Source: an uncultured Succiniclasticum sp.
GTDB taxonomy: Bacteria; Bacillota; Negativicutes; Acidaminococcales; Acidaminococcaceae
DNA length: 64,000 nucleotides
Assembly: GCA_905235335.1 (NCBI GenBank)
Contig: CAJOKZ010000002.1
Coordinates: forward strand, 939-64,938
Direction: 5' to 3'
The stretch's first letter is position 1. Each line of letters opens with the position of its first letter. Position numbers and translations under genes: made by a program. This document shows, in pieces, positions 46,346-61,221 of this stretch. Under the pieces are notes generated by a model, which did no database searches, was not told the origin of the DNA, and saw only the letters and a program-made list of their open reading frames with translations.

Positions 46346-47623
46346 TTATTTTACAATGCTGGGAAGCCATGTCGCCAGTTCCGGCACGAGACAAAGAATC
46401 AGCATCTCAAACGCCATGACGGCCGCATAAGGCATTACACCCTTTACGATCTGCGTCATCTTGCTGTCAGGGCTGACGCCCTGGATGACGAACAGGTTCA
46501 TGCCGACCGGCGGTGTGATCAGCGCCATTTCCATGTTGATCTGGAGGATGACGTTGAACCAGATGGGATCAAAGCCCAGCTGCAGGATGATGGGGTACAG
46601 GATCGGTACCGTGATGAAGATGATGGATACCGTTTCCAGGATACAGCCCAGGAACAGCAGCAGGCAGTTGATCATGATGAAGAATATCCACCGGCTCATC
46701 TGCATTTCCGTAACCATCATCGTCAGCGCCTGAGGCACCTGCAGGATCGTCAGCACGAAGCCGAACAGGGTGGCACCGATCATGATGGCAAAGATCATGG
46801 AAGATGTCTTGACCGTTCCCAGCAGGATACCGGGGATATGTTTCAGTGTAAGTGTTTTATAAATAAAGAAGGTGATGAACAGGGAGAACACCGTTCCGAC
46901 AGCCGCCGCTTCCGTAGGGGTAAAGGCACCGGTATAGATGCCGCCTACGACGATCACCGGCAGCATGAGGCCCCAGATAGAGCTTTTCAGCGCCGTGATC
47001 CTCTCGTCCCAGGAGGCTTTTGGCTCCAGCGGCAGATTGCGCGATTTGAAGATGACCACAAGAATGAAGAAGACCGTCAGCATAAATCCGGGAACCACAC
47101 CGGACATGAACAGCTGGCCGATGGATTCCCCGGTGATGGCGCCGTACAGGATCATGGGAATGGACGGCGGGATCAGGATGCCCAGGGTACCGCCCGCGGC
47201 AACCGCGCCGAGCACGACGGTCCGTTCATAATTACGCTTCAGCATTTCCGGGATCGCAATAGCGCCGATGGTGACGGCGCAGGCCGCGGAAGAACCGGTG
47301 ATGGCGGCGAAGATGCCGCAGGCTACGATGGTCGCGGCTCCCAGCCCGCCGGGCAGATGGCGCAGCCACTTGTTGCCCAGTTCGAACAGGTCATCGCCGA
47401 CCTTGCCTTCCAGCAGGATCTGGCTCATCAGAACATACAGCGGCACGGCGCAGAGCACAAAGTCATCCAGCGATTTGTAGGCCAGCAGCGGAATCTGGTT
47501 CAGCGTGCCTTCGCCTCCCATAAACAGAAGCATGCCCACAAGGCCGCCGGTCCCCAGCGCGAAGCCGACCGGAAGGCCGATAGCCAGCAGCACCAGTAGC
47601 ATAACGGTAAACAAAATAATCAT
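46346..47623 (-). CDS. dctM: TRAP transporter large permease
   Basis: MIILFTVMLLVLLAIGLPVGFALGTGGLVGMLLF; IMGLVLTII-type multi-TM protein, PPSIPMILYGAITGESIGQLFMSGVVPG. Confidence 0.93.
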   Translation of the reverse strand: MIILFTVMLLVLLAIGLPVGFALGTGGLVGMLLFMGGEGTLNQIPLLAYKSLDDFVLCAVPLYVLMSQILLEGKVGDDLFELGNKWLRHLPGGLGAATIVACGIFAAITGSSAACAVTIGAIAIPEMLKRNYERTVVLGAVAAGGTLGILIPPSIPMILYGAITGESIGQLFMSGVVPGFMLTVFFILVVIFKSRNLPLEPKASWDERITALKSSIWGLMLPVIVVGGIYTGAFTPTEAAAVGTVFSLFITFFIYKTLTLKHIPGILLGTVKTSSMIFAIMIGATLFGFVLTILQVPQALTMMVTEMQMSRWIFFIMINCLLLFLGCILETVSIIFITVPILYPIILQLGFDPIWFNVILQINMEMALITPPVGMNLFVIQGVSPDSKMTQIVKGVMPYAAVMAFEMLILCLVPELATWLPSIVK

Positions 47624-48162
47624 TTTGCCACCTCCCCTGCCGCCGCAGCCGGGTCATACGAAGGATCGCCCAGTTTGATAACATTTTCCAAAAAGGCCCG
47701 GATAAAATGAAGGAACATCAACCCGAAGCCCACAGGCAGGGACGTCTGCGGGATCCACAACGGGGTGCGCAGCGTCGTAGGCGCGATCATCCCCAGTTCA
47801 AAGGTCATGGCAACCATGTCAATGGCATAGACGGTGACCACACCGCAGAATATCATGCCGATAAAGGACGTAATGACATTCAGTATCTCATTTGTCCGTT
47901 CACTTAAATGGGAAAGCAGGATATCCACCCGGATATGTTTGTTTGCCACAAATGTCACGGACATACCGAGGAAACCGGCAATCGTCACGCAGTACGTGGA
48001 AATTTCCACAACCCATTCCGTCGGGCTGTTGAAAAGGCCCCTCATAATGACCTCATATACAATGGAAAAGGCGGGAATAAAAAGCAGTAACCCTGCAATC
48101 ACCCCCACCACACGGGTGAGGCCCACCAAAAATCTTCTGTAAACCGCTAAAAAACCTTTCAC
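47620..48162 (-). CDS. dctQ: TRAP transporter small permease
   Basis: YEVIMRGLFNSPTEWVVEISTYCVTIAGFLGMSVTFVANKHIRVDIL; overlaps dctM by 4 nt. Confidence 0.9.
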   Translation of the reverse strand: MKGFLAVYRRFLVGLTRVVGVIAGLLLFIPAFSIVYEVIMRGLFNSPTEWVVEISTYCVTIAGFLGMSVTFVANKHIRVDILLSHLSERTNEILNVITSFIGMIFCGVVTVYAIDMVAMTFELGMIAPTTLRTPLWIPQTSLPVGFGLMFLHFIRAFLENVIKLGDPSYDPAAAAGEVAK

Positions 48163-49361: not shown

Positions 49362-49592
49362 AAAAAATCCCCTGTCGGAATATTCCGGCAGGGGCGTCAT
49401 TCACGCGGTACCACCCTACATTATACTCTCCGGCCCGATAACGCCGCCACAGCGCTTTACCCTAAAAGGCGCAACCCGTTCAGATAAAGAACTCCCAGGC
49501 GAGAAGTCCTATCGCTTCCACCGGCTCGCACCGCCCGCCGGTTCTCTGTTGTCCGCGCATAAAACCAATCCTGATCACAGTTTTTATTTGAA
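49362..49592 (-). promoter_or_regulatory. T-box riboswitch leader upstream of dctPQM
   Basis: RC contains AGAGAACCGGCGGGCGGTGCGAGCCGG (stem I distal), GGGAGTTCTTTATCTGAA, T-box AGGGTGGTACCGCG (49404-49417) and terminator CCCCTGCCGGAATATTCCGACAGGGGATTTTTT (49362-49396). Confidence 0.93.
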
Positions 49593-49601
49593 ATTAAATT
49601 C

Positions 49602-49630
49602 AGTATAGCAAGGCGGTATTAAAATGTCAA
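49602..49630 (-). promoter_or_regulatory. Sigma-A promoter of the T-box/TRAP operon
   Basis: TTGACA-17 nt-TATACT on - strand just upstream of the T-box leader. Confidence 0.85.
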
Positions 49631-58154: not shown

Positions 58155-58399
58155 GCTGCGTCCTCCCTCCAAACGCGGGAAGTATATATGATCCAACCTT
58201 CCGCCAGCGCCATTTTATCATATTATCCCAATATTTCCTATTCTGTGTTATAATAAAACAAGAATGAATAAAGATTGATTCTTAATAAACGGCATGGTTG
58301 ACGGATCTGCCGTCAACAGCCGCACACCCCAAAGAAACGCAAGGCAGCGCCGATTCAACGCGTTTCCTTGAAAATCTTGAACACCTCACACATCCTCAT

Positions 58400-59743
58400 A
58401 TGACAAACAACGACAACCGACAGGAACACAACAGCAAATTAGCCACCAAATGGCTGTTCACCAAGAACCGGTCCTGCAGCTGCACCATGCCGGGCATCTG
58501 GCGGGCTGTCAGCTTCTGCGACGGCTGCGCGGTCATCTTCCACGGCCCGTCCGGCTGCGCCCATGTGGCCACCCTGATGGATCTGGGCGCCCAATACCGC
58601 ATCATCGGGAACCGCATAAGCGAACAAGTCGACGCCGTCCCCCTTATCGCCTCGGACCTGCAGGACAAGGACTGTATCTTCGGCGGAACGGACCGTCTGC
58701 GGGGCTGCATCGCTTATGTGATGGAAACCTGGCATCCGAAATGCTTGGTCATCGCATCATCCTGCGTGGCCGGTGTCATCGGCGATGACGTGGAACAGGA
58801 AGCGGAAGATGCGGAAGCGATGTACCGGATCCCGGTTCTCTGCGTACCCTACGGCGGCTTTCTGGGAGGAGAGTATTCTGACGGGTATTTCCAGACGGCC
58901 AGGCTGATCATGGACCGCTTCCTCACGCCCCAGCCCAAAGCGCCCGGCACAGTACTGCTGCTGGGAGACCAGATGGGACCCTGGGGCCAGTACGCACGGG
59001 AAGTGAAACGCCTGCTGGCCGGATTCGGGCTGCAGGTAAAGTGGCAGTTCCCCGGCTATGTCCCTTTCGACCGGTGGCGGGAAATGACATCCGCCTCCCT
59101 GCTGATTCCCCTGAACTACGCGGGACAGACCCAGGGCGGGCTGGAAAAAACGGCGGCGGACTGGCAGGAACGGTTCGGAACCCCGTCTGTCCGCAACATA
59201 TATCCGGTAGGCTGGCAGAACACCTGCGACTGGCTGCGCAGCATCGGGCGGCTGCTGCAGGAGGAAGCCCGGGGTGAAGCCATCATCCGTCGGGAAGAAA
59301 AGCGGCTGGATGATTTTATCGCATCCATCCTGCCCGTCACAAAACAAAAAAAGGCCGTCCTCGGCATCGGCCGGGGACCCCGCTGGTACAACCCGGCCGA
59401 AACGCTGAATACCATGCGGCGGATGCAGATGGATATCACCGCCGTCATACTGTTCGACAAATTAGCAGCCGATGAAAAGGAAACAGTAACCGCCACGGTA
59501 CAGACCTGGCTGGCCGACAGGAACCTGCAAACCGTCCCCCTCATCGGCAATGGGGATTTTAATGCCATCCTGCAGGACGCCGATGTGCTTCTGACCACCG
59601 ATGAAATCCTGGACAACCCTGTCAGGCAGTTCTTCATCCCCATGGTGCCCCTGGCCGGAACAGACGGGGAGATCCTTCTGATGCGCACCATATACCGCTT
59701 GCTTTGCCGTTATGGAAACAAGGGAGGGATCGCCTATGCGTAA
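58400..59743 (+). CDS. Nitrogenase component 1-like protein (paralog A)
   Basis: CDGCAVIFHGPSGCAHVATL; DCIFGGTDRLRGCIAYV; CLVIASSCVAGVIGDDVEQEAEDAE; GGFLGGEYSDGY; start uncertain. Confidence 0.82.
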   Translation: MTNNDNRQEHNSKLATKWLFTKNRSCSCTMPGIWRAVSFCDGCAVIFHGPSGCAHVATLMDLGAQYRIIGNRISEQVDAVPLIASDLQDKDCIFGGTDRLRGCIAYVMETWHPKCLVIASSCVAGVIGDDVEQEAEDAEAMYRIPVLCVPYGGFLGGEYSDGYFQTARLIMDRFLTPQPKAPGTVLLLGDQMGPWGQYAREVKRLLAGFGLQVKWQFPGYVPFDRWREMTSASLLIPLNYAGQTQGGLEKTAADWQERFGTPSVRNIYPVGWQNTCDWLRSIGRLLQEEARGEAIIRREEKRLDDFIASILPVTKQKKAVLGIGRGPRWYNPAETLNTMRRMQMDITAVILFDKLAADEKETVTATVQTWLADRNLQTVPLIGNGDFNAILQDADVLLTTDEILDNPVRQFFIPMVPLAGTDGEILLMRTIYRLLCRYGNKGGIAYA

Positions 59744-59808
59744 CGAAACACAAGCCACGTTCCGCCGCTCCGGTTTCGCCGCAGCGGCAAACAAAGGAGG
59801 GAACCGTT

Positions 59809-61221
59809 ATGCCTGACCCGAACTGGAAGACGTCCTGCCACCACATGTCGGTCTGCGCCCTCACCGGCGCCTCCGCTTTTTTTGCGTCCATCTCCGGCAG
59901 CTTTATCCTGATCAACGGTCCTCTCTGGTGCTATTTCTATGCCATGAAATATGTGGAAGACTACGACGCCTCCGCCCTGCGCCGTTTCCATTGCACACAA
60001 CCGGAAGGCAACGCGCTGGTATACGGGACGGAAAAAGACCTGCTGGCGGGATTGGATTTTATCAAAAACAACTTTACGCCGGAACGGGTCTTCATCGTCA
60101 ACAACTGCAGCGTCAGCCTGGTCGGCGACGATATTGCGGCCATTGCGGCCAAAGCAGCGCTGCCCTGCCCAGTTTACACCGTGGACAGCGGCGGCATCTC
60201 CGGGGATTTTCCGGAGGGATATGAGATCGCGCTGCTGCGGGTCATAAAGGAAGTAAAAAAGAACGCAAAAACGAAAACGGATTTACCTTTTGAAAACCCA
60301 AATTTGCAAGACGGCAATACCGTTTCAACGAATGTTTCCAAGCCGGAAAACGCTTCCGAAGCCGACGAAAGCGCCGCGAACGGTTCCGGTATTCCTTCCG
60401 CCAGGCCTTCCGTCAATCTTCTGGGCCTGACCCCCACTTACTTCCGGGGCGAAGAAGACATAAAAGAAGTCCGCCGCATTCTGGAAAAAGCGGGCTATCG
60501 TATCAATGCCGTCCCCGGCGGTGGCTCCACCTGGGACGAAATCATGCGGCTTCCCAACGCGGATTTAAATCTTGTACTGCGGGACGAACTGGCGCTGAAA
60601 GCCGCCAAAGCGCTGGAATCAGAATTCGGCACGCCGTTTATATCCGCAGGCATGCCCTACGGTATCCAGGGTACGCTCCGGTGGCTGGCCACGATCGATG
60701 CCGCACTGCCTGCCAAAAATCCGGAAGCCGTCAGACTGGAAGCGGAAACCGTCAACGCCCGGCTCCGGTTCCGCAGCAGCAACATGCAGTCCCTGTGGGG
60801 CCCCTTGTGGTTCGACAATATCCTGATCGCCGCGCCGCCTTCGGAAGCCGCCGGTCTCGCGGAAGCGGTCCGGGGCGAATGGGCCGACACCGGAAATCTG
60901 GTCATCCACTTCTCTCAGGACACGCCCCTGCGTCCGGCATCGGCAGATAAGATCTGCATTGCGGGAAAAGACGACGCCGCCATGAAAGAAACCTTTGAAA
61001 AATGGAACGACGGCCTTGTCCTGGGATCTTCCCTCGAAGCAAGCCGTCTTGTGCGTTTGAACAAACCCTTCGTAAACTGCAACATCGTGCTGCCGTCCTA
61101 TCACGAGATCATCGCGTCCGACGCGCCCCTGTGCGGCATCCGCGGCGCCGCTTACCTGTTCGAACGGATCTGGAACGCAAAATTAAACGGCTGCATGGAC
61201 GAGGTCAGGCAAACAAAATAA
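59809..61221 (+). CDS. Nitrogenase component 1-like protein (paralog B)
   Basis: MPDPNWKTSCHHMSVCALTGASAFFASISGSFILINGPLWCYFYA; VYGTEKDLLAGLDFI; VFIVNNCSVSLVGDDIAAIA; GLTPTYFRGEEDIKEVRRILEKAGYRINAVPGGGSTWDEI. Confidence 0.8.
   Translation: MPDPNWKTSCHHMSVCALTGASAFFASISGSFILINGPLWCYFYAMKYVEDYDASALRRFHCTQPEGNALVYGTEKDLLAGLDFIKNNFTPERVFIVNNCSVSLVGDDIAAIAAKAALPCPVYTVDSGGISGDFPEGYEIALLRVIKEVKKNAKTKTDLPFENPNLQDGNTVSTNVSKPENASEADESAANGSGIPSARPSVNLLGLTPTYFRGEEDIKEVRRILEKAGYRINAVPGGGSTWDEIMRLPNADLNLVLRDELALKAAKALESEFGTPFISAGMPYGIQGTLRWLATIDAALPAKNPEAVRLEAETVNARLRFRSSNMQSLWGPLWFDNILIAAPPSEAAGLAEAVRGEWADTGNLVIHFSQDTPLRPASADKICIAGKDDAAMKETFEKWNDGLVLGSSLEASRLVRLNKPFVNCNIVLPSYHEIIASDAPLCGIRGAAYLFERIWNAKLNGCMDEVRQTK

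Follow-up and report, generated by a model that had tools for sequence, protein, structure and literature searches.

The dctPQM operon and its leader

The stretch of DNA analysed here (the window, 64,000 nucleotides) comes from a Succiniclasticum-like genome of the Acidaminococcaceae and carries on its minus strand a three-gene operon, dctP-dctQ-dctM, in which a binding protein, a small permease and a large permease of the proper TRAP families (Pfam, NCBIfam) follow one another. A T-box leader (49587-49387) lies directly upstream. The coordinates are collected in Table 1. Flanking the operon are genes that we have named from their translations, for a metallo-beta-lactamase-fold protein upstream and a TypA/BipA-like GTPase downstream; they are conserved as neighbours in several relatives and are not obviously members of the operon. 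Elsewhere in the window (58298-61221, plus strand) there are two adjacent nitrogenase-component-1-like proteins, their best models being NifE and BchB, with scores far below the curated cut-offs; the pair sits in a fermenting rumen bacterium.

Table 1. Positions, strand and supporting evidence for the promoter, leader elements and genes of the dctPQM locus
Feature	Position	Strand	Evidence
Promoter TTGACA-17-TATACT, sigma-70-type, TG before -10 (extended -10)	49602-49630	-	11/12 matches in promoter scan; direct reading
T-box leader, stem I to antiterminator	49387-49587	-	RF00230, 82.4 bits, E 2.4e-18, model 1-219 of 219
Specifier codon CUC (Leu)	49501-49503	-	Infernal column alignment; conservation in relatives
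T-box sequence AGGGTGGTACCGCG / AGGGUGGUACCGCG	49404-49417	-	Direct reading
Intrinsic terminator CCCCUGCCGGAAUAUUCCGACAGGGG + U6 (stem 49394-49369, T tract 49367-49362)	49362-49394	-	Direct reading; folds as hairpin
dctP, TRAP solute-binding protein, 343 aa	48222-49253	-	PF03480 E 5.8e-79; TIGR00787 and NF037995 over cut-off
dctQ, TRAP small permease subunit	47620-48162	-	PF04290 E 8.9e-29
dctM, TRAP large permease subunit	46346-47623	-	TIGR00786 and PF06808 over cut-off

The initial annotation had described a complete T-box leader, with promoter and terminator, directly before dctP, and the alignment to RF00230 bears this out over the full length of the model, with CUC in the specifier column (E 2.0e-18 when the whole genome is searched). 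At the Rfam gathering score of 93 no T-box is called in the window, the score of the dctP leader being lower (Table 1). This value is also missed by ten of the genome's 14 T-boxes, among them the leaders of ileS, pheS and valS, and the dctP T-box was accepted through the E-value mode of the search together with its conservation, the T-box motif being found at the same place in all 13 Acidaminococcaceae-type orthologues retrieved by protein search. Against shuffled sequences the leader's fold energy does not stand out (z -1.45); the call comes from the covariance model and the conservation, not from unaided fold energy.

The specifier is followed by a conserved purine, G49500, and then by the lower stem CCUG (49499-49496), which pairs with CAGG (49573-49570), and the T-box sequence contains UGGU (49413-49410), complementary to the ACCA 3' end of a tRNA. 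The terminator hairpin with its U6 overlaps the 3' strand of the antiterminator, so that, by sequence reading and fold, the two are predicted to be mutually exclusive and their choice to depend on tRNA. A generic terminator scan did not flag this terminator, whose stem carries an internal mismatch. The ATG of dctP (49253) is located ca. 108 nt past the T tract.

Leucine specificity, regulon and distribution

We compared 45 distinct leaders of the dctPQM operon in relatives, of which 41 carry CUC, three CUG, and one was unreadable by the parser (CUC by eye). The base after the specifier is a purine in every parsed leader except one (L081). The CUC position varies only to the synonymous CUG or, in a single genus (g92 of the Negativicutes family f32), to GUC (Val), while the three bases of the overlapping UUC, proposed in the initial annotation as an alternative Phe specifier, are not conserved across the set. 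The synonymous change of the third base and the lack of conservation of the UUC frame exclude phenylalanine and indicate a leucine-specific switch, as the CUC reading first put forward had it, with 44 of the 45 leaders showing CUC or CUG. The pairs of the lower stem vary together (CAGG/CCTG, CGGG/CCCG, TGGG/CCCA, CGGA/TCCG), a covariation that is supportive and not independent, as the specifier parser demanded lower-stem pairing. The genome also encodes a tRNA-Leu(GAG) with A73 and a 3' end GC-A-CCA, which fits both the pairing of the anticodon with CUC and the suggested pairing of UGGU (TGGT in the DNA) with a tRNA ending in ACCA. Altogether, the dctPQM operon is almost certainly under leucine-specific T-box control. 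By the standard T-box mechanism, which we read here from the sequence, uncharged tRNA-Leu(GAG) would pair through its anticodon with the CUC of stem I and through its ACCA end with the UGGU of the T-box, the bound tRNA would allow the antiterminator to form and dctPQM to be transcribed, and with charged tRNA-Leu the terminator would form.

The rest of the genome offers a built-in check on the chosen reading frame. With specifiers taken from the alignments and controlled genes named from downstream translations, the 14 T-boxes precede ilvN-ilvC (Ile), ileS (Ile), leuA (Leu, CUG), leuC (Leu, CUC), dctP (Leu, CUC), trpB (Trp), trpD (Trp), a Cys-type ABC binding protein (Cys), serA (Ser), valS (Val), thrS (Thr), metA (Met), pheS (Phe) and glyQ (Gly), and the specifier matches the controlled gene in every case that can be judged. 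By its specifier, dctPQM is one of three Leu-controlled units, with leuA and leuC, and thus a member of the leucine-biosynthesis regulon, in keeping with the early proposal of a transporter under amino-acid control. AGUA is missing from the specifier loop in both the dctP leader (49387-49587) and the leuC leader (L007), and given this common absence the former may derive from a copy of the latter.

DctP is 91-97% identical in the named relatives, which are Succiniclasticum and other Acidaminococcaceae of rumen and gut, and an orthologue is present in 78 of the 383 Negativicutes genomes searched. Two layouts were found. One is that of the source lineage and Acidaminococcus, with the T-box directly before dctP. 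The other, seen in 19 distinct relatives, has the T-box ca. 960-1020 nt upstream of dctP (777 in a truncated case), ahead of a lyase gene that stops shortly before dctP and that is absent from the operon in the source lineage. This T-box-lyase-dctP arrangement is also found in a Peptococcaceae bin (L027), with a T-box of 125.6 bits. In the tree, the deepest split within the DctP clade has T-box-bearing members on either side, so the control is probably old and its losses mainly confined to family f20, many members of which lack a T-box (none was detected by Infernal at loci L090, L102 and L106). In one f1 genome (G011; loci L129 and L056) there is a lyase-dctPQM operon, at which (L129) Infernal finds no T-box although close relatives have one. 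In genome G318, a single Leu T-box (CUC) is followed by leuA-leuC-leuD-leuB-lyase-dctP-dctQ-dctM, all on a single strand with short gaps; its lyase (L079) has no T-box beside it because lyase-dctPQM end a T-box-led leu operon.

Binding protein, lyase and cargo

The AlphaFold model of DctP (pLDDT 88) has the canonical TRAP binding-protein fold, with 4p47 as best PDB match (TM 0.81). We discarded the fold comparison as a guide to the ligand: the best-scoring structures are generic TRAP proteins, which allow no ligand transfer. In all 73 aligned orthologues the residue after 'GF' is V or I, while Arg or Lys stands there in four of the five solved proteins nearest to DctP (the exception, 4nn3, reads GRK instead of GF-R/K); the same 73 have S/T-SG where all five solved relatives have EN-P, and E250 is conserved in the subfamily. 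We take the residue following 'GF' and the EN-P motif to sit close to the carboxylate of the ligand in TRAP binding proteins. Neither of these marks of C4-dicarboxylate binding, the basic residue and EN-P, was found in the 73 orthologues, and by them DctP would not be a canonical C4-dicarboxylate binder, so that a dicarboxylate pocket cannot be assumed.

This bears on another reading of the locus, in which the system takes up C4-dicarboxylates in general (e.g., succinate), has only been brought under amino-acid control and serves as the main fuel importer in a succinate-fermenting genus. The genome (2.08 Mb) holds only one full-length DctP, the named relatives are Succiniclasticum, and C4-dicarboxylate binders are among the closest solved relatives of the protein. 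However, V or I replaces the basic residue throughout, it is hard to see why charged tRNA-Leu should shut down a fuel importer, and the T-box control is conserved from family to family and goes along with leu genes and the lyase, all of which makes such a role very improbable.

The operon lyase, a member of the isocitrate lyase/PEP mutase superfamily, has the KRCGH motif. It falls below every NCBIfam cut-off, and its nearest solved relative is the petal death protein (1ZLP, 288 bits, vs. 176 bits for methylisocitrate lyase 1MUM). 2-Alkylmalates and oxaloacetate are the substrates that the petal death protein cleaves. The source genome has a petal-death-protein-like paralogue elsewhere (L134, 1492-2388 of contig C7 of G000), without a T-box. 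The paralogues form a separate, well-supported clade, in which L134 groups with the lyases of f32-g92 that have Val T-boxes.

Family f32 serves as a natural experiment. It comprises seven genomes, one of them a single contig at 99% completeness. No LeuA was found by PF08502 in the six tested, and PF00682 matched only pyruvate-carboxylase-sized ORFs (7/7); IlvC was absent from all seven, with a query that finds it in 29 of 33 other genomes. Yet leuB and leuD are kept, and in each of the five genomes read a Leu (CUC) T-box controls leuC-leuD-leuB. LeuCDB without LeuA would be useful only if isopropylmalate is imported or made by another synthase, and the retention of LeuCD points to entry at 2-isopropylmalate and not at 3-isopropylmalate, 2-oxoisocaproate or leucine. 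In genus g93 of this family, lyase and dctPQM form one cassette behind a CUC T-box; the position of the g93 DctP within the Acidaminococcaceae branch suggests that this cassette was transferred. Genus g92 has dctPQM and a lyase paralogue at separate places, each with its own Val-specifier (GUC) T-box, and this valine control would suit a compound from which 2-oxoisovalerate can be obtained as well. In f1, genomes G025 (g9) and G017 (g6) have LeuA and LeuB and no IlvC match.

The usual logic of T-box transporters (Wels et al., 2008; PMC2494555) would have the TRAP system import leucine or the branched-chain amino acids themselves, and the conserved E250 together with D160, both putative pocket residues, could bind an amino group. 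But the LeuA/IlvC-less f32 genomes already own branched-chain amino-acid importers on separate T-boxes beside their TRAP genes, namely LivJ-type (with Leu, Ile and Val specifiers), LivH (behind a Leu and an Ile T-box in tandem) and BrnQ, and import of the amino acid leaves the lyase, the leuACDB-lyase-dctPQM operon and the retained leuCDB unexplained; we regard it as improbable. Genomes G322 and G327 have 33 and 36 T-box matches, respectively, and in G322 a tandem pair, Leu (CUC) and Ile (AUC), precedes a LivH permease gene (C1:1486269-1486622; L190, L282).

The context of the lyase, the leuACDB-lyase-dctPQM operon of G318 and the leuCDB kept in genomes lacking LeuA and IlvC argue instead for a pathway intermediate as cargo. 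Taking isopropylmalate and the 2-oxo acids together, we consider it likely that the system imports an intermediate of the leucine pathway. The best candidate for a compound feeding LeuCDB would be 2-isopropylmalate, and the full reading, a Leu T-box on a TRAP importer of this compound, we put at a little less than an even chance. In the distant relatives that would co-produce the TRAP system and the lyase, alkylmalates might be cleaved to 2-oxo acids, or off-pathway alkylmalates cleared. The initial annotation had expected an amino acid or its 2-oxo or 2-hydroxy acid rather than a classic C4-dicarboxylate, a contrast that 2-isopropylmalate would blur, being itself a substituted C4-dicarboxylate. 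Two other candidates were set aside. One is 2-acetolactate, a known TRAP ligand (PMC5812351), which would be unusable in the IlvC-less f32; the other is a lyase making 3-isopropylmalate from isovalerate and glyoxylate, which would leave LeuCD without a role in that family.

Several observations count against 2-isopropylmalate. LeuA is present in 44 of 50 genomes tested, that of the source included, so there its import would be only scavenging, and a lyase cleaving it would oppose leucine synthesis in these LeuA-positive genomes. The Val specifiers of f32-g92 would suit 2-oxoisovalerate equally, the V/I and S/T-SG positions of DctP speak against taking a dicarboxylate pocket for granted, and there are the many f20 members without a T-box. 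The same leucine T-box could thus govern a TRAP system for a branched-chain 2-oxo acid, 2-oxoisovalerate or 2-oxoisocaproate, with the lyase condensing 2-oxoisovalerate and acetate to 2-isopropylmalate in acetate-rich guts and so replacing the lost LeuA. In Rhodobacter capsulatus, monocarboxylic 2-oxo acids that belong to amino-acid biosynthesis enter the cell through a TRAP system (PMC5812351). 2-Oxoisovalerate would fit Leu and Val specifiers alike and account for LeuA without IlvC in G025, and the loss of the second basic pocket residue in DctP would fit a monocarboxylate. Nevertheless, an aldol-type condensation using acetate is disfavoured when concentrations are low, a Val and not a Leu specifier on the f32-g92 lyase is odd for an isopropylmalate-forming enzyme, and import of 2-oxoisocaproate would leave the retained leuCDB pointless. 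We find this somewhat unlikely and keep 2-isopropylmalate as the preferred cargo. We give somewhat less than even odds to the further reading that a tRNA-Leu-controlled 2-isopropylmalate importer lets bacteria lacking LeuA and IlvC make leucine from an intermediate shed by their neighbours and, via the lyase, perhaps valine.

Significance and relation to known systems

TRAP transporters usually receive the annotation 'C4-dicarboxylate' by default, and for a whole subfamily the tRNA-sensing switch hints directly at what is carried. The preferred reading predicts partial auxotrophs of the leucine pathway, without LeuA and IlvC and with leuCDB kept, living on a shed intermediate. If true, this would be cross-feeding by a pathway intermediate instead of an amino acid, which auxotrophy models built on gene presence would miss. 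The bacterial petal-death-protein-like lyases would also gain a functional context.

The seven families of T-box-controlled transporters given by Wels et al. (2008; PMC2494555) are MFS, APC, NSS, DAACS, LIVCS, NhaC and ABC, with no TRAP among them; no TRAP system is mentioned in the searched passages of Sun et al. (2013) and of the TBDB paper, and the word riboswitch is absent from the review PMC5812351. A full-text literature search combining T-box with TRAP terms found no account of the pairing, although an earlier mention in the larger surveys (Vitreschak, 2008; Gutierrez-Preciado, 2009) is possible. A T-box on a TRAP transporter is therefore new only relative to the literature covered.

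Compared with the leucine class of RF00230, represented by the leuA and leuC leaders of the same genome, the dctP leader has in common stem I, the Leu specifier with its purine, the T-box sequence and the competing terminator. It differs in controlling a TRAP transporter, and its specifier loop is without AGUA, as in the leuC leader. Among DctP-family TRAP systems (PF03480/PF04290/PF06808) all three subunits score above the family cut-offs and the binding-protein fold is canonical, while V/I after 'GF', S/T-SG for EN-P and the conserved E250 mark a subfamily of its own. With the TakP-type 2-oxo-acid TRAP system of Rhodobacter (PMC5812351), to which we liken it by description only, it shares the tie to precursors of amino-acid biosynthesis. 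The itaconate system IctPQM of Pseudomonas aeruginosa (PMC12599236) is likewise a specialist, its substrate being a branched C5 dicarboxylate, and is associated with the genes for using that compound; it is, however, catabolic and near canonical DctP, and between its binding protein PA0884 (9ht3) and the DctP described here the identity is only 24%. As for the operon lyase, the best solved relative is the petal death protein 1ZLP, and the KRCGH motif is shared with the petal death protein/methylisocitrate lyase family.
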